A stretch of 64,000 nucleotides of DNA from Bacteroidota bacterium (lineage in GTDB: Bacteria; Bacteroidota; Ignavibacteria; Palsa-1295), in assembly GCA_021324685.1 (NCBI GenBank), contig JAJPIQ010000085.1:1-64000 (forward strand). Reading direction: 5' to 3'. Positions 22,624-39,997 of this stretch are shown here, one piece after another. The notes under the pieces are model-generated. The model did no database searches and was not told the origin of the DNA. It saw only the letters and a program-made list of their open reading frames with translations. The stretch's first letter is position 1; every line of letters starts with the position of its first letter. Position numbers and translations under genes: made by a program.

Positions 22624-24720
22624 TCAGAATAGTGAAACCTTCGTAAATTCCCTTTCTCCTTGCCCGTGTTTTAACACAATAAAATAATCGCCCGCTGGCA
22701 AGACGCCGGTCGTTATGGATTCTTCAATGCCAGACAGTTGCTCCCAAAAACAGCACGTCCCGAGCTCATCATAAATAAAGACCTCACCCGGTTCCCGTAA
22801 CTCTGGTTCCCGGACTACGATGCGGCTGTGAGAGGCGTAGACGGAAAGCGAAGAAAATCCCGATTGAGAATAATCCTTCACCGCATCGGTTTCAGGTCCC
22901 CGATAAACGATAAGGTCCTGACTGCCTATGGAGACGTCGCCTGTTTGCGGACTAACGGCCATACAAAAAATAGTGCTGCTGTCAAGGGCTTTTTCTTTCT
23001 TTAGAATTTTGTTCGTTGCTAAATCGAACCATTCAATCGTATCATTCCACGTATTGTAATTATTGAAGTGCCCAAGCGCAAAACCTCCCACATATTTGCC
23101 ATCGGGAAGTCTTATAACCGTCCCCATGGTACCGTCGTGGGGAATTTGTTCTGTTGCACTATTAAAAATATTACGAATTTCATAACCGTTAGTGCCATTC
23201 ACTAAAAGAGCAGAGTCTCCCGGCATAAAAGCGATCAGACCGATTCCGCCCCACCCTGCATCGCTCCGATTGAGGGTAGCTAAACGCTTCCCGGTATGAG
23301 AATCCCACACGTAAAAATTATTTGGGTCGCTTGCCGCCAAAAAACTTCCACTGTTCGAAAAAACGAGGGCGAAAATTGGGTTAAGCGGATTATCTAGCGT
23401 TGCGACTAACCGGCGCTGTGGCCCATTCCAAATTTGGGCAGCATTTCTTTCGTCCTGAGACCATCCGCTTTCGGAATAAATCTGTGTGGCCACAGCAAAT
23501 TCGGAATCGTCCGGAGAAACGGCGACAACAGTTGGAGCAGATGTATCGCAAATGCCGGATCGCAACTGCACTCCGGTGTCTGACAGGTCCGACCAAAAAT
23601 AAATTTCTCCGTTCGGGCCTCCTCCGGTAACGGCATGGTAACCGGTTGCGGTCGAAGAGCGCCCGCCAACAATGGATAACGAACGTACCGCTCCGTTTTT
23701 AGCATCGAAGATGCTTCCGGCAACGAGACTTTTGCCATCTGCGGAGAACGCCCCATAGAATGTGGGGGTACATCCAAGGTCTTGCACAACCTCGTGGCGA
23801 GAAATAGAATAGAGGGTGGGTCCCGGAACGATAAGAGTATCTTCGTTGAAAAACGATGCGGAAGGGAATGGCAACGGAGTAACTGCGTGAGATTTAAGAT
23901 CGATAATATCGGCCGTTTGCGCACCATTCAAAATATTGAACTGCTCCGACGTTATGCTTGAACCGGAAGGACTGAAAGTGATTGCTCCTCCGGCATTTTC
24001 ACTTCCCCATTCTGCCAGAATCGCTCCCGAAGTATCCATTTCCTTTAAATCGTTATCCCAGACAATGAACGTTCCGGCACGCTTCGGATTGAAGGCGAGG
24101 ACCTGCGGCGTATTAAAAATATTGCCAAAGCGACGCACTTCTTTTTTCGACGGTATATCTATCAGTGACAAAATACTATTTGCCGTTGCCGCAAGCAGCA
24201 TCGTGCCGTCGGAACTTATACTAACACGGCCTCGATCTTTTGCTTTCACGGTTAAGTACAGGCTGTCGCCGATTCGATCGAACAGATACTCCATCGAATC
24301 CTCATAGCTCACACATATAAAGTTACCATCGGGCGTTGCATCGATAGAGAGTGGAATACCCTCCGAAGGCAAGCTTACAAGGAGCGTAAACTTGTTCGAA
24401 TCTGGATTCCAGGCTATGATCCGTTCTCCACATGCAGAGATGATTTCATGTCCGCCCTTCGTTGAAACAGAGGTCCACGCGACGTCACGGCTCAAGTGGT
24501 CGGTGTCTGCAAACGAGCTGCCGCGTTCCGGAATTACGGCATTACTGAGAGGCCACGCTTCCCACCCCTCCAGGGTCGTGAATAAAAGCATGTCCTGTCT
24601 CGTCGACGGCACGAGCGTTCCCGCTGTTCCGCCTCTTGCCCACAAAATGTCCGGCGTCTGCGCGAAGGCGTCCGGCGCAAACACAAGAATGCTTATCGAA
24701 AGAATGGCCCGTTGTAACAT
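22624..24720 (-). CDS. T9SS-secreted beta-propeller (WD40-like) protein
   Basis: The 698 residues start with a signal peptide (MLQRAILSISILVFAPDAFA). The body shows repeated propeller blades of the WD40/YVTN type, for example SIDATPDGNFICVSYEDSME, VSISSDGTMLLAATANSILS, GAFSADGKSLVAGSIFDAKN and VAVSPDDSEFAVATQIYSES. The C-terminus is a diverged type A sorting domain (VFIYDELGTCCFWEQLSG, then LPAGDYFIVLKHG and FTKVSLF). It is probably a cell-surface or secreted protein; the ligand is unknown. Confidence 0.75.
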   Translation of the reverse strand: MLQRAILSISILVFAPDAFAQTPDILWARGGTAGTLVPSTRQDMLLFTTLEGWEAWPLSNAVIPERGSSFADTDHLSRDVAWTSVSTKGGHEIISACGERIIAWNPDSNKFTLLVSLPSEGIPLSIDATPDGNFICVSYEDSMEYLFDRIGDSLYLTVKAKDRGRVSISSDGTMLLAATANSILSLIDIPSKKEVRRFGNIFNTPQVLAFNPKRAGTFIVWDNDLKEMDTSGAILAEWGSENAGGAITFSPSGSSITSEQFNILNGAQTADIIDLKSHAVTPLPFPSASFFNEDTLIVPGPTLYSISRHEVVQDLGCTPTFYGAFSADGKSLVAGSIFDAKNGAVRSLSIVGGRSSTATGYHAVTGGGPNGEIYFWSDLSDTGVQLRSGICDTSAPTVVAVSPDDSEFAVATQIYSESGWSQDERNAAQIWNGPQRRLVATLDNPLNPIFALVFSNSGSFLAASDPNNFYVWDSHTGKRLATLNRSDAGWGGIGLIAFMPGDSALLVNGTNGYEIRNIFNSATEQIPHDGTMGTVIRLPDGKYVGGFALGHFNNYNTWNDTIEWFDLATNKILKKEKALDSSTIFCMAVSPQTGDVSIGSQDLIVYRGPETDAVKDYSQSGFSSLSVYASHSRIVVREPELREPGEVFIYDELGTCCFWEQLSGIEESITTGVLPAGDYFIVLKHGQGEREFTKVSLF

Positions 24721-24892: not shown

Positions 24893-25690
24893 TTAATGGT
24901 CGAGAAAGATTCGAAAGCATTGCGTGCCCGACTGAATAAAATAAAGCCCGCGCGTCGCATTCGAAAAATCGAAGTCGTAACATGTGCTGGATATTGATTG
25001 CGGCGCAATATTATTTATTGCCCGGCCGAGTTCATCGTACACTTTGAATTCGCGCGGGCTACAATTCCGCGCCCAAAGATAGGCGTGGCGATTACGGAAA
25101 TAACATTCCAGGGAGTCGTCACTCGTGCCCTCCCTAACGCCGGCCCCGCCAGGCATCACAGGCGTCGCCAATTGAAAACTGATATTGGGAATGTTATATA
25201 AGAATTTATAAACGGAATCGGCGGGTGTAAAAGAAAAAAAGTGAAATTCGAACCAACACGCGTAATCAATGGTATCGTCTGGAAAAAGGCGTCGAACTAC
25301 AAAAGGTCCGATGCTATCGTAAATGTTTTTAAAAACGAAACGCCATTGAGGGTAATTTGTATCGATTGCCGTCCACGGTAGCTCCATGATCGTATCGGCC
25401 GGCGCCCAGGGGACCCATATAGGAATCTCTAAATGAATACCGCGATGTATCCAAATTGGCCCGTCGGATAAGTTTGACAAACACGTGTCGAGCATCACGG
25501 AATCGGGGTTGTAGAGTGAATCGTCGTGGTAAAAGTCATTTCCATGATACAAAGCATGAAAATACAACTCGAGACAGGTGGTATCGATATTCCACCGATT
25601 TTGCGCCGAGGCATGCTCCGCCGTCCATGGTGCAGCCGCAACCAGGATTAGCACGACGGCAAACAAAACCGATTTTCGTGTGCGATTCAT
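24893..25690 (-). CDS. Tandem secreted paralogue 1 (one copy of a ~140-residue module + sorting domain)
   Basis: This 265-residue protein has a signal peptide (RKSVLFAVVLILVAAAPWTA) and one module: TTCLELYFHALYHGNDFYHD, NPDSVMLDTC, DTIMELPWTAIDTNYPQWRF, DSIGPFVVRRLFPDDTIDYA, ADSVYKFLYNIPNISFQLAT. It closes with a short T9SS-like sorting domain (EFKVYDELGRAINNI, ATRGLYFIQSG). The module is shared with the next two genes. The DSVxxxLxxIPN end faintly recalls subtilase propeptide-like domains; that is speculative. Confidence 0.7.
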   Translation of the reverse strand: MNRTRKSVLFAVVLILVAAAPWTAEHASAQNRWNIDTTCLELYFHALYHGNDFYHDDSLYNPDSVMLDTCLSNLSDGPIWIHRGIHLEIPIWVPWAPADTIMELPWTAIDTNYPQWRFVFKNIYDSIGPFVVRRLFPDDTIDYACWFEFHFFSFTPADSVYKFLYNIPNISFQLATPVMPGGAGVREGTSDDSLECYFRNRHAYLWARNCSPREFKVYDELGRAINNIAPQSISSTCYDFDFSNATRGLYFIQSGTQCFRIFLDH

Positions 25691-25729
25691 GGGATTTGAT
25701 AGGAATTTAAGCTGTATTCGATGGGATGA

Positions 25730-26989
25730 TTAATTTTGAAAACAAAAAGGTCCCATAAACTCGGATTGAATCTGAAGAAAGTACGGGCCGCGTGCAAGTC
25801 CTTCTATGTCCAACGGACCAAGTGGATTAACTCTTCCCCTTCGAACGACTCTGCCGCAGATATCGAATATAGAATAATCCGCGGCCGCGAGAAGACCTTC
25901 AACAAAATATTTTCCATCCGATTGAACCGACATTCGCAATTTCGTCGCTGCGGCCGCATTGCTTCTCACGCTTTCATTTGCATGAACGATTATCGGCTGT
26001 CCTGCCCACCATACCTTTGAAATCAGGGGGATGCTCGAAAGAATATTGAAGATAGAATCGCGGGACTGATAATCGTTGAAAACGACCTCAAACGTTTTAT
26101 AGTCCGAGCTTGTCGAGTCCCCATTAGCCGGGTAAACTTTTCTAAGCCAAAGTCCTCCAAAGGTAGAATCAAGATGCGCAAAGGCTGTGCGCGTAAGAGG
26201 GTACGCATCCTGAATATACTTCCAGGGGACTTCGAGGACCGTATCGGTCAGGATGGGTGGAAGCGTAATCGCTGCATACTGGAATTGAATATACCAGGAG
26301 CGCTTCGAATAGACCGAGGTGAAACTATCGGAGTTCTGGCAGGTATCGATCATCGTACTATCCGGATTTAGGATCGTACTATCCATCAATTCCGGATCCT
26401 GATGCCTCATCACATTTTCAGCAAGTTCAAGGCATGAGTCCCTGCCATTTCCCGATAGCGCCCCTGCAACAGGATACCCGAAGAAATATGCATTAGCGAC
26501 GTTTGGAATCGACTTTAAATAATTGACAAAAGAATCGACCGGCACGAAACGGCCCAGAGTTAATGTATAAATTTTAGATCCCAGCCAATTAGTGTCAAGG
26601 GTCATTAGCGTCAGTTTTATACGGATACCTCCATAAATCGAATCCATGAAACGAAATATAGTGCGTGTTTCCGCATAGGTCGTATCAATGGCATGCCATC
26701 CACCAGGAACGATGCTGTCGGCTGGGAGGGAATCGAGTGGAATGACTGCGTACTGGAACTGAATAGCGTACGCCTGGTCGCAGTATATAGAATCGAACGT
26801 AACGGACTGCTCGCACGTATCGACCATGACGCTATCGGTATTTCCCCATCCAAGGTATTGGGGAGTTCGCTGCGCAAGTTGAAGGCACGCATCCACACTT
26901 TGCGCCGCAACTCGTTCCGCCGTCCAGGGTGCTGCCCCGGCCAGGAGCAGGACGACTGAAAACAAAATCGGTTTTCGCGTGCGATTCAT
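25730..26989 (-). CDS. Tandem secreted paralogue 2 (two copies of the module + sorting domain)
   Basis: This 419-residue protein has a signal peptide (RKPILFSVVLLLAGAAPWTA) and two in-tandem copies of the module. The first runs from about VDACLQLAQRT to IPNVANAYFFGYPVAG, the second from RDSCLELAENV to IPLISKVWWAGQPIIV. Each has the xDSVMVDTC/NPDSTMIDTC turn and the DSxxxxLxxIP end. The C-terminal sorting domain has YSIFDICGRVVRRGRV and LARGPYFLQIQ. It is oriented and spaced as an operon with its neighbours. Confidence 0.7.
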   Translation of the reverse strand: MNRTRKPILFSVVLLLAGAAPWTAERVAAQSVDACLQLAQRTPQYLGWGNTDSVMVDTCEQSVTFDSIYCDQAYAIQFQYAVIPLDSLPADSIVPGGWHAIDTTYAETRTIFRFMDSIYGGIRIKLTLMTLDTNWLGSKIYTLTLGRFVPVDSFVNYLKSIPNVANAYFFGYPVAGALSGNGRDSCLELAENVMRHQDPELMDSTILNPDSTMIDTCQNSDSFTSVYSKRSWYIQFQYAAITLPPILTDTVLEVPWKYIQDAYPLTRTAFAHLDSTFGGLWLRKVYPANGDSTSSDYKTFEVVFNDYQSRDSIFNILSSIPLISKVWWAGQPIIVHANESVRSNAAAATKLRMSVQSDGKYFVEGLLAAADYSIFDICGRVVRRGRVNPLGPLDIEGLARGPYFLQIQSEFMGPFCFQN

Positions 26990-27045
26990 GGAAAATACAA
27001 TCTAAGCTTTGGTTCTGCGATTGGAGTGAAGTAATGGATATAGCT

Positions 27046-27861
27046 TTATTCTTCAATTACTACTTTAGAAACATACGGTCCATATCGAACAAAATAAAGG
27101 CCTGTCGAAATTGTTGAAAAATCGAGGGAACATTCATCGTTAGAACTCCATCTTGACGGTATCGTTGAAATGATTCGACCGACGGCATCGCAAGCCACAA
27201 ATTTAGAATCATTCCCTAACGATGGCACGCGCGCTGTCGCTATTCCGTGGGTGATATTGGGACAAATCATGAATTGCTTGACCGTTGCATCCAATCCTTC
27301 GCTTACTCCTGCTCCTCCCGGGATCAACGGCTTTGCAAATGTAAAAACAAGATTGGGTATTTCCAATAAATAATGATAAACAGAATCAGCGGGACTGAAT
27401 GAGAAAAAATTGAATTCAAAGCCGAAGCCATCGGCGTCGGAAGTATCATCAGGCTCATCTTTTCGCATTACATAGGGCCCAATACTATCATAAATTTTTT
27501 GAAAAACCGTTCGAAATAATGGGTACGATGTGTCGATCTTTGTCCAGGGCGCCTCTAGAATCGTGTCCGGCGGCCCCCACGGTAAGCGGATTGGAACGAT
27601 TAAATGGATTGCACGGTGTATCCAAATAGGCGCGTCATCTACAACTGGTAAACACGTATCGAGCATCACGGAATCGGGGTTGTAAAGTGAATCGTCGTGG
27701 TAATAGTCGTTTCCATTATACAAAGCATGAAAATACAACTGGAGGCAGGTGGTGTCGATATTCCACCGATTCTGTGCCGAGGCACGCTGCGCTGTCCAGG
27801 GTGCAGCGACACTGAGCAACATGGCAACTGCGAAGGAAATCGATCTAATTGTGCAGTTCAT
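27046..27861 (-). CDS. Tandem secreted paralogue 3 (one module + sorting domain)
   Basis: The start was placed at MNCTIRSISFAVAMLLSVAA, which gives a signal peptide; an upstream ATG at 27912 adds 17 residues that do not look coding. The module closely matches paralogue 1 (NRWNIDTTCLQLYFHALYNG, NPDSVMLDTCL, DTILEAPWTKIDTSYPLFRT, DSVYHYLLEIPNLVFTFAKP). At the DNA level the 5' region (about 27655-27805) is nearly the same as 25485-25635. The sorting domain is FVACDAVGRIISTI then STGLYFVRYG. The function is unknown. Confidence 0.7.
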   Translation of the reverse strand: MNCTIRSISFAVAMLLSVAAPWTAQRASAQNRWNIDTTCLQLYFHALYNGNDYYHDDSLYNPDSVMLDTCLPVVDDAPIWIHRAIHLIVPIRLPWGPPDTILEAPWTKIDTSYPLFRTVFQKIYDSIGPYVMRKDEPDDTSDADGFGFEFNFFSFSPADSVYHYLLEIPNLVFTFAKPLIPGGAGVSEGLDATVKQFMICPNITHGIATARVPSLGNDSKFVACDAVGRIISTIPSRWSSNDECSLDFSTISTGLYFVRYGPYVSKVVIEE

Positions 27862-36329: not shown

Positions 36330-37673
36330 TCAATGCTCGATCGTAAACTGCACGGCTTTATGCTGACCCTGCGTTTGAAGATCGGCATAATAAATCCCAC
36401 TCGGAAGCTGCGAGCAATCGAGCTGGAGGCAGAGGCCCAGTTCCGCTTCCGGCGTTGCGTTATAAAGCATGGCAACTTGCGTTCCCATTTCGTTTACCAC
36501 ATCGACCGTCACCGGAATACCGCCCGGAATATCTTCGACGCAGACCTTCACGCTCGTCCGCGCTGGGTTCGGATGCACCGTGACAGTCAACTCCGGTTGT
36601 GGGGTACCTAAAGCCTGGGGATGAGGGTCGGCTATCTTGAAGCCGCCGACGCTACTGTCGGGAGGAGGAAGGACATCCTGGATGGGATCATCGAAACTCT
36701 CGATATGCGCAAGCGTCAGATTGTCGGTTGAATCGCCGCGAGCAACATCCAGCGTTAGAAAGAATGAATCCGCGATTGGAATTATTGCATGACCATAACC
36801 GCTATCCGCCACGTTAGTGCTCGAAATAAAGGTAGAGCGAGTGAGTCGCGCCGTATCGAGCACCAGTACAATAGCACTATCGGCAGCACGACGAAGATTA
36901 ATCGACGCTCGAAAATAGTCACCGCCGGTGGAATCGAGTCCAGCTTGAATGACGGCCGTATCACCTACAGTGAAGGTTCCCATACGGAAAAAACGTGTAT
37001 AGCTGAGTGAATCGCCAGCGCTGGCTATAAATGTACTTGTCCGAACACTCGGCGAGGTCCAACCAATGTGTGGCGGAGGTTCAGTGCTGTCGAATCGGTT
37101 AGGGGCAATCGGAAGCCATGATGCAGTGGTTGGTATTCCGCCTCCCGAAGGAAAAGCCATAGGAGGGTGACCGCCACCTGAGCGAATTGCGAATACAATA
37201 CACCCAAAGTTGTCGGAAGCAGTAATCGTCTGCATCATTAATTTATCTTGCTGAACGGGTGTAACCGGAAAATCGAAGCGAGTAATTTTTGCATCATACG
37301 TGCTATCGGAATGCAACGAGGTACCTCGAAACATGACAGCCTCTGGCAAATTATTCTGGTTTAGCTCCCAAACGGCTGACGAAGGAGCTATAGATGATTC
37401 CACGAAGTGAAGTCTATTCCAGCCGTTGGAATATGAAGGATATCCATAGCGTGCCATCGTGACATGCCCCAAAAGAGAATCGCTCCAAACAATGCGTTTC
37501 CAATCGCGATAATACAACGAGGGTCCCGTAGTCGAATAAGTCGTAGCGTCCTGGGGAAGCGATAAAAGGTCGCGGAGTCCTTCGATTGTAGCATGAATAA
37601 CATTCGGGGTATACCATGCAATGCAATCGAACCACGTTGGGGGAAATGCTGGATTCTTTTCTCGCATCATCAC
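36330..37673 (-). CDS. C-terminal segment of a very large T9SS protein (frameshifted)
   Basis: This segment ends in a type A sorting domain (HPNPARTSVKVCVEDIPG, VDVVNEMGTQVAMLYN, LPSGIYYADLQTQ, AVQFTIEH) but has no signal peptide. Its frame continues upstream of the apparent ATG through YVTVTWEWQKIYSPYTDLIA to the region of 37746-37748. There it would join the preceding segment's SIDGKG if one base were added to a run of three Gs. It is therefore probably not an independent gene. The body has fibronectin-like beta sequence of no recognised family. Confidence 0.7.
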   Translation of the reverse strand: MMMREKNPAFPPTWFDCIAWYTPNVIHATIEGLRDLLSLPQDATTYSTTGPSLYYRDWKRIVWSDSLLGHVTMARYGYPSYSNGWNRLHFVESSIAPSSAVWELNQNNLPEAVMFRGTSLHSDSTYDAKITRFDFPVTPVQQDKLMMQTITASDNFGCIVFAIRSGGGHPPMAFPSGGGIPTTASWLPIAPNRFDSTEPPPHIGWTSPSVRTSTFIASAGDSLSYTRFFRMGTFTVGDTAVIQAGLDSTGGDYFRASINLRRAADSAIVLVLDTARLTRSTFISSTNVADSGYGHAIIPIADSFFLTLDVARGDSTDNLTLAHIESFDDPIQDVLPPPDSSVGGFKIADPHPQALGTPQPELTVTVHPNPARTSVKVCVEDIPGGIPVTVDVVNEMGTQVAMLYNATPEAELGLCLQLDCSQLPSGIYYADLQTQGQHKAVQFTIEH

Positions 37674-37687
37674 CCATTTATCCCAGG

Positions 37688-39997
37688 CTATGAGGTCGGT
37701 ATATGGCGAGTATATTTTCTGCCATTCCCACGTAACAGTAACATACCCTTTCCATCAATCGAAATACATGGTGTACGATGTAAGCAAGACCCGTATCCAT
37801 TAGATATTTTTGTAAGCCTTCCAGTATCGATGATTCCAGGGTTCACGGTATCTGGCCATGCTTCAAGGTAATAGATATTTCCGTAGTCCGGGACTTGCGG
37901 TGGAATCGAGGGATAGGATACAGACTCCTGAAAAGCAATATAACAGCGTTTATGTCCGGGCCAAAAAGCAGGCTGAGCATAAGAAGAGCGCGATGCAAGC
38001 GAAATAAATTTCGTATTCGAAGGATCGCCCGCGGAAAAATAGCGAATGCTGGATCGATACCCCGGACCGACAAGCGCGATCGCTCCGCCTTTCGTTGGAT
38101 TTCGCCAGCCAACCCAGAACGAAGCGCTTGCAGTATTCCACAACGTTACTGAAATAGCAGGTGCAGCAACATAATATGAATCTGTGACTGGAAAAGCTTC
38201 GAGTGTGTCCTTTTCAAAATAAATGCGGTCAGTTGTAGACGTTGCGAAGCGGAAAATAATGAACGTCGAATCGCCCGTTGTGCCCGCATGGTCAACACTA
38301 TAGACGATCCCATAACCCCTCCCCACGTCGGGATTGATTGCAATAGCGGGGTTATGAGCCTTGCCACAGGGTTCAAGTAGCAACTCAGGGTTTATCGTGT
38401 CGGTCTCGCGCTTCGAAAGACTTGTGGGAGTTTCAAGGGGAGAATTGACATAAATGTTCCCCTTTCGTTCATAGACCATCCAATAAGAGTGCGATGTATC
38501 ATACCCTGTCTCATTGTAGGCCATGTGACGAGCGTTATTCCATACATTAGTGGTGAGTTTGCCAATAGTTTCGCTTGTCGAGGGAGCGATACGCAGCAGC
38601 GCTCCGCGGCCTGCACCAAGTGTGATCGAGAAGTTGCTGTCCAGTCCCACGATAGTATCCCATCCGGTTCCCTCGTTCGTAATTTCCCACACGGACCAAT
38701 TAATATAAAATGGATTGAACGCGCTATCGCGGACCTGCATTGTGATCGTGCGGGTGTCGGTTTGGTCAGTGCCGGTAGAGTCGGTCCATAGAAGACGGTT
38801 TAAGACCGAAAGATAGCGGGCGAGACTATCCGAAGGAAGCTGATGAATGCCAAAGTCCAAATAAGAAATTGCATCGGTTGTTCCAGAAAGATTTTTCGTG
38901 CTAATACTTTGCACTGGCAATCGGCTAAGATACGTCGGTGTAGAATCTTTTTTATTCCAGCACACCGATCCCAGCCAATTAAGTTCCTGCAACAGGCTCG
39001 ATTTGACGAGCGGTGATAGGTCATCCCGCATTTCACGTTGCACTTCGTTGAAGAGGTGGGCGTAGTTGTTTGGAGGAGGGAGCAATTTGATAATGTGAGA
39101 GTTCCCTGCCGAATCAACATATGGATATTGATGAAAATCTTCGAATATTGTATAAGGTTGACCATTCCCGTCGAGTATGTTATAAAATTGGGCAACTCGC
39201 GTGTCTAACCCTGCGCCACCATACCTAAGATATATATCTGGAATCCCAACGACACTCTGAGTCTTTGTCAAATCGGGCTGAACAATTCCGTGCTGTTGTA
39301 ATCCATCATCGCTACCATAGTTCAAAAGATAGCCCTTTAGGCCGTGCGTAATGCCCCACCAAAGTTGAAAACTCGCTTCTGTCGTGGTAGGCATTCTACC
39401 TCCCCACCAAAACCAATCGAGCAACGAATCGAGCTTTACTACGGTATCATAGGGGTGCCTTGCGCGGTATGGATTAAAAATTAAAGAAGCCGTGAGCTCA
39501 TTTTCAATATAATGTGACCACCAGTCTTGTCGGTAAGCAACAGTGCCATTAGATGTCGAAAATGCCTGATTGATCCAATTATTGATATCTGCTGTGTCTC
39601 CGGAACCCAACTGACTACTTAGAACCCCACGAAAAAACGATGTATCATTATTCCCAATAGCCCAAAGGAGTACCATCTGGATCGAATCCATTTTCCACTT
39701 CGGCCTCTCCCAGTGCCCTCCTAACAGTTGAGGGCTCATTCTCATGGGGACAATGGGCCCTGTAGGATCGTCGTAGCAGGAACTCGCGAATTCCTTCATG
39801 CCTTGCTCCCATCCCAAACCACCTCCTGGTGTTTCAGAAGCGTACCCAATAATGGAGTCCTGATAATTCCGCTTGAACGTTGAAGCACCAAGAACGTGAA
39901 TTCCGTGTCGGAACGCAGTAAAGGAGTCCGGCATCATCGCCGAAGGCACAGGCGTCCAATAGTTATCGTTATATATACCGTAAGCAGATTCGCTCAC
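37688..39997 (-). CDS. Middle segment of a very large T9SS protein (frameshifted at both ends)
   Basis: This 769-codon frame has neither a signal peptide nor a sorting domain. It starts with a GTG that overlaps the upstream stop (GTGA) and ends in a short out-of-frame tail after SIDGKG. The sequence looks beta-rich with WYG-type motifs (WMVYERKGNIYVNSPLETPT, GYGIVYSVDHAGTTGDSTFI), resembling propeller or sialidase-like folds in its second half. In-frame family-like sequence QHFNARVSESAYGIYND runs upstream of the GTG, which supports a lost base near 40000-40002. Confidence 0.65.
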   Translation of the reverse strand: MSESAYGIYNDNYWTPVPSAMMPDSFTAFRHGIHVLGASTFKRNYQDSIIGYASETPGGGLGWEQGMKEFASSCYDDPTGPIVPMRMSPQLLGGHWERPKWKMDSIQMVLLWAIGNNDTSFFRGVLSSQLGSGDTADINNWINQAFSTSNGTVAYRQDWWSHYIENELTASLIFNPYRARHPYDTVVKLDSLLDWFWWGGRMPTTTEASFQLWWGITHGLKGYLLNYGSDDGLQQHGIVQPDLTKTQSVVGIPDIYLRYGGAGLDTRVAQFYNILDGNGQPYTIFEDFHQYPYVDSAGNSHIIKLLPPPNNYAHLFNEVQREMRDDLSPLVKSSLLQELNWLGSVCWNKKDSTPTYLSRLPVQSISTKNLSGTTDAISYLDFGIHQLPSDSLARYLSVLNRLLWTDSTGTDQTDTRTITMQVRDSAFNPFYINWSVWEITNEGTGWDTIVGLDSNFSITLGAGRGALLRIAPSTSETIGKLTTNVWNNARHMAYNETGYDTSHSYWMVYERKGNIYVNSPLETPTSLSKRETDTINPELLLEPCGKAHNPAIAINPDVGRGYGIVYSVDHAGTTGDSTFIIFRFATSTTDRIYFEKDTLEAFPVTDSYYVAAPAISVTLWNTASASFWVGWRNPTKGGAIALVGPGYRSSIRYFSAGDPSNTKFISLASRSSYAQPAFWPGHKRCYIAFQESVSYPSIPPQVPDYGNIYYLEAWPDTVNPGIIDTGRLTKISNGYGSCLHRTPCISIDGKGMLLLRGNGRKYTRHIPTS

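Follow-up and report, generated by a model that had tools for sequence, protein, structure and literature searches.

Three tandem secreted proteins of a Bacteroidota bacterium appear to carry free-standing subtilase prodomains and are putative subtilase inhibitors acting in trans

What is the ~145-residue module that recurs in three adjacent secreted-type proteins, each of which lacks a catalytic domain, and what might it do there? The three genes lie on the minus strand of a 64,000-nucleotide stretch of a Bacteroidota genome (hereafter the window) and are read in the order 27861 to 27046, 26989 to 25730 and 25690 to 24893, with intergenic gaps of 56 and 39 bases. Gene 3 (27046–27861, 271 residues), the first in the reading direction, encodes a signal peptide, one module (27310–27759, residues 35–184) and a tail resembling the type A sorting signal of the type IX secretion system (T9SS; 27049–27300). 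Gene 2 (25730–26989, 419 residues) encodes a signal peptide, a first module (26456–26893, residues 33–178), a second module (25982–26443, residues 183–336) and a similar tail (25733–25969). Gene 1 (24893–25690, 265 residues) again has a signal peptide, a single module (25142–25588, residues 35–183), which includes the conserved pair Cys39 and Cys70, and a tail (24896–25132). The signal peptides are of the ordinary type and end in ASAQ or VAAQ. A sequence-only reading of this DNA had described three tandem secreted paralogues sharing one module in one, two and one copies; the open reading frames, the signal peptides and the module copies were all found, and the four copies are the total for the whole genome.

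All three tails fall below the curated cut-offs of the T9SS type A models. They score 13.7–16.6 bits with Por_Secre_tail (PF18962; cut-off 27) and at most 17.9 bits with TIGR04183 (cut-off 23). An iterated profile ties them to the tail of another window protein, encoded at about 36333–37754, which exceeds the Por_Secre_tail cut-off at 28.3 bits. The genome has 144 PF18962 matches and possesses a T9SS, as seen from SprA (SprA_N match at 3.5e-24). In the documented T9SS process PorU cleaves the tail off and possibly anchors the cargo as well (PMC11285876).

The four module copies, whose alignment had been proposed as a check, proved homologous and far above chance in similarity, with blastp E values from 1e-15 to 1e-102. 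The modules of genes 1 and 3 share 68.5% amino acid identity and every other pair 27–33%. The near-identity at the DNA level that had been noticed between copies 1 and 3 is real, in that 137 of 151 bases are identical between 25485–25635 and 27656–27806 (spacing 2171), but the register first given was one base off, and at a spacing of 2170 just 34 of the 151 bases match. The similarity is limited to a tract of codons 31–81, located on the minus strand at 25448–25600 in gene 1 and 27619–27771 in gene 3 (permutation p = 0.0002). Within codons 31–72 dS is 0.30, whereas synonymous sites are near saturation elsewhere, which argues for local gene conversion between old paralogues. Thus, of the two origins that the sequence-only reading had offered, recent duplication or gene conversion, the second stands as a local event. 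A recent duplication of the whole of genes 1 and 3 is ruled out by the saturated dS beyond the tract. The overall omega of 0.21 between the two genes indicates that they are under purifying selection. For the signal region, a test of conversion between gene 1 and gene 2 gave no significant result (p = 0.31).

The module has no match in Pfam, NCBIfam or the sequences of the PDB, and the window proteins gave just the weak T9SS tails. Pfam propeptide families, including Inhibitor_I9 (PF05922), gave no match when 12 modules were scanned at E values up to 10. The module was then sought in 100 and subsequently 391 genomes of the same class, and was found in 34 of the 391; in a phylum-wide draw of 395 genomes the matches were confined to members of this class, and a collection scan with a narrower alignment gave four module loci. 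The module occurs in two settings, in free-standing proteins of ~250–290 residues (409 where there are two modules) and at the N-terminus of proteins of ~1600–1780 residues. In genome G005, of the same genus, a 1626-residue protein carries the module at residues ~40–180, followed by a Peptidase_S8 domain (4e-15) and then a Por_Secre_tail. Peptidase_S8 was detected in eight further module proteins at 2e-13 to 4e-4; of the long proteins in the subfamily alignment, two have no Pfam match by themselves. The catalytic Asp, His and Ser are kept in all 10 proteins of the catalytic-domain alignment. The module stops at the junction PNDxGL...W.L....PMAWEIT.G, through which the chain enters the catalytic domain, an arrangement shared with ordinary subtilases of this lineage. 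Its position N-terminal to Peptidase_S8 and its end at this junction mark it as a subtilase prodomain.

The window modules belong with these prodomains by descent. Gene 1 matches the G005 prodomain at 5e-30 with phmmer and at 6e-53 with the module HMM. A tree built from 41 modules places genes 1 and 3 as sister group to the pair formed by the prodomain of the G005 protease and its free-standing neighbour, with support of 100/99. In it, free-standing modules are mixed with attached ones, and its well-supported branches force at least six changes of state. Judged from sequence, we identify the module as the prodomain of a divergent subfamily of T9SS-type family S8 subtilases, with which the window modules share ancestry; this identification rests mainly on domain position and homology. 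The possibility that the proteins form an undescribed surface-protein family therefore held only in part: no library names the module, but its identity as a subtilase prodomain is recoverable through relatives, and a protease propeptide had been named beforehand as one possible outcome. The prodomain-attached subtilases are very long (about 1600–1780 residues; locus L043, 6473–11350), and the stretch of ~900 residues that separates the catalytic domain from the sorting tail contains no Pfam domain above the cut-off in the one protein scanned whole.

The fold was predicted by AlphaFold2 run with 12 related sequences. The model of the second module of gene 2, spanning residues 183–338, has the order strand-helix-strand-strand-helix-strand (pTM 0.73). 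The core of a relative, L109, gave the same order, with strands at 9–14, 58–62, 77–82 and 101–106 and helices at 42–55 and 88–95 (pTM 0.75, pLDDT 83). A core fold of this kind is very common. Subtilisin propeptides and stand-alone propeptide mimics have been described with this topology (PMC6993865). A Foldseek search against the PDB yielded no significant match, the best E value being 0.15 and the matches mostly other ferredoxin-like folds. The top query TM-score among the matches listed, 0.48, belongs to 8uwc, the subtilase site-one protease (E 0.86, matched region not given); 8gkq, a 93-residue Aspergillus alkaline protease chain, has a query TM-score of 0.38 at E ~0.8. In profile comparison with hhalign, the protease-attached module plus junction aligned with ordinary S8 prodomains of the lineage at 74% probability, in a register running from strand 3 and helix 2 through to the PNDP junction. 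The module without the junction aligned weakly, at 7.8% probability. Because this comparison is weak, the case for a general kinship to I9 is built on topology and position, and we regard that kinship as likely. In common with Inhibitor_I9 and Peptidase_S8_N (PF16361), the module precedes Peptidase_S8 and shows weak profile similarity over strand 3, helix 2 and the junction; it differs from them in being longer than I9 and in having no Pfam match.

The free-standing and attached forms can be compared directly where they are neighbours. G005 and G224 each have a free-standing gene immediately upstream of the module-protease gene, separated from it by a gap of ~15–30 nucleotides. The modules of each pair are 89–91% identical in protein sequence, and their flanks (signal and tail) are 21–65% identical. 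The G005 pair carries a conversion tract at silent sites (0 of 20000 shuffles). In the G224 pair the silent sites have diverged and the protein has not (dS 0.86, dN 0.058, omega 0.07). The two forms are thus held alike, since protein identity is ~90% despite the silent-site divergence in G224, which would fit binding of both to one catalytic surface. The Cys pair would bridge an N-terminal extension of ~45 residues, and its second Cys is kept in 28 of 28 free-standing modules and lost from 5 of 13 attached ones (Fisher p = 0.002, kinship ignored). Such a pattern would be expected if the free form persists and the attached form is transient.

This gene order could also suit a helper of folding. 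Subtilase prodomains are known folding chaperones (PMC6993865), and a free-standing prodomain encoded directly upstream of the protease might be an intramolecular chaperone supplied separately, in trans. We consider this very unlikely, as the proteases of G005 and G224 have prodomains of their own and the window genome contains no subfamily protease to fold.

That absence rests on the scoring of all 18 candidates in the window genome, an assembly of 89 contigs that is 98% complete and may still have missed a 5-kb gene. The genome has six ordinary S8 proteases, and the module is found in none of them. Within the genus, the protease is intact in G005 and cut by a contig end in G006; in G001 (G001:C11) and G004 (G004:C44) broken protease pieces lie near module genes. 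These pieces, together with the missing protease of the window genome, are what one would see if the free modules were leftovers of decayed prodomain-protease genes, kept by chance. Such an origin is nonetheless highly improbable. The window genes are complete from signal peptide to tail, and the omega between genes 1 and 3 is that of constrained genes (0.21); the tail of the free-standing G005 protein differs from the protease tail, with a match of 16 residues only; and free-standing forms also adjoin intact proteases.

Across the class, with the best four candidates per genome scored, 15 of the 20 other genomes with free-standing modules have no detectable subfamily protease. On the same scoring, the protease is present in 5 of 21 genomes with free-standing modules versus 11 of 370 others (p = 0.0008, phylogeny ignored). 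So free modules and protease are associated, yet the free modules often outlive the enzyme. One way to account for modules without an enzyme is that the prodomain fold has been re-used for surface binding: displayed by the T9SS, it would bind a polymer or other cells, and its diversity would come from copy number and recombination. The protease is absent from the window genome and, with the best four candidates scored in each, from the majority of genomes that have free-standing modules, which agrees with such re-use, as do the divergence of modules to about 30% identity within one locus and the recurrence of two-module proteins in G224 and G284. We judge it a minority possibility, however, since a free-standing module beside a protease tracks its prodomain at ~90% identity and the two forms interleave in the tree with at least six forced changes of state. 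Two-module free-standing proteins of 409 residues, like gene 2, are encoded in two other genomes at L091 (7618–8844) and L099 (9149–10375).

The reading that we favour, and hold to be reasonably probable, is that the window proteins are T9SS-secreted, stand-alone subtilase prodomains, putative inhibitors of subtilases in trans at the cell surface. They would cross the inner membrane by their signal peptides and be brought to the surface by the T9SS. The module would fold alone, helped by a disulfide across its N-terminal extension, and could dock on the catalytic domain of a subfamily subtilase as a prodomain does, blocking the active site in trans. Where a genome retains the protease, free modules may restrain it at the surface of the producing cell. 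A cognate target is not evident in the window genome, since it has no subfamily protease; having lost it, the cell might direct its modules at related subtilases of neighbouring strains or at another subtilase of its own. One structural point counts against inhibition. The tail of a propeptide normally lies in the active site, and the free-standing module precedes a sorting tail rather than ending in a free C-terminus. If PorU removed the tail, the module would come to lie close to a new C-terminus at the cell surface, and a propeptide-like tail could still reach an active site. An extension of the inhibitor reading, which we put forward as speculative and rather unlikely, is an enzyme-immunity arrangement built from a single domain, in which T9SS subtilases are accompanied by free prodomain copies matched to them by conversion, and lineages that lose the protease, the window genome among them, keep their free prodomains and multiply them, so that the cell surface is protected from the protease of relatives.

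Stand-alone propeptide-like inhibitors of subtilisins have been described as MEROPS I9 or I9-like proteins, namely Pleurotus POIA1, yeast Pbi2/IB2, Arabidopsis SPI-1, Toxoplasma MIC5 and Plasmodium SUB1-ProM; they come from a small number of eukaryotes, in which they lack sequence similarity to the enzyme's own propeptide (PMC6993865). The window family has in common with them a predicted propeptide fold of two helices on a four-stranded sheet made as its own gene product, and neighbourhood to a subtilase gene (SUB1-ProM; here G005 and G224). It differs from the described examples, which are eukaryotic and have no T9SS sorting tail: it is bacterial, the module has the N-terminal Cys-pair extension of ~45 residues, each protein holds one or two modules together with a T9SS-like tail, and a cognate protease is often missing from the genome. 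The potempins of Tannerella forsythia are inhibitors encoded directly upstream of the T9SS KLIKK proteases (PMC7296668). Inhibitor-protease gene order, a protease that is T9SS cargo, and enzyme and inhibitor that vary together are shared features. In the window the genes are not directly upstream of a T9SS protease gene, as they are in G005 and G224. Potempins are small lipoproteins, whereas the window proteins lack a lipobox cysteine, their signal peptides having been judged by eye, and bear a T9SS-like tail. Unlike potempins, the window modules would derive from the protease's own prodomain, which makes potempins an analogue in working and not a relative. A third comparison is Bergeyella SpBcA, a T9SS subtilase of KP-43 type. 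Its N-terminal inhibitory propeptide resembles the present module in not being recognised as I9. It differs in that it is reported to lack the I9 structure, and free-standing copies were not found described in the available text of that report (PMC11982257). The closest working analogues would therefore be the eukaryotic stand-alone propeptide inhibitors and, for gene order, the Tannerella potempins.

A module covered by no library thereby gains a name. In this bacterial family one prodomain exists both by itself and attached to the protease; the two forms occur together, exchange sequence and go separate ways in close relatives, so that the origin of an inhibitor and its co-adaptation with the enzyme should be traceable and testable directly.

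At L044 (G004:C44, 10470–17995) a recombining cluster contains intact and truncated modules, one of them fused to another sorting tail, as well as a module joined to a protease start before a frame break and a protein whose tail resembles the one on the G005 protease. In many relatives the module loci are found at the ends of contigs or on contigs that are short (L044–L049, L088 and L090, in G001, G004, G011, G015, G213 and G224), which suggests that assemblies break at near-identical tandem copies and that the copy numbers seen are too low.

A comparison of five window neighbours of the three genes with ten module loci of relatives revealed no synteny. After the three genes, on the same strand and following a gap of 172 bases, lies a gene for a WD40-like β-propeller protein of 698 residues (22624–24720, minus strand). 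At E ≤ 1e-20, G001, G004 and G005 have no homologue of this gene. A paralogue is encoded on contig C45, and homologues were found in G002 and G006 (31–33% identity). In G005 a different propeller protein, BNR/sortilin-like, comes after the module-protease gene.
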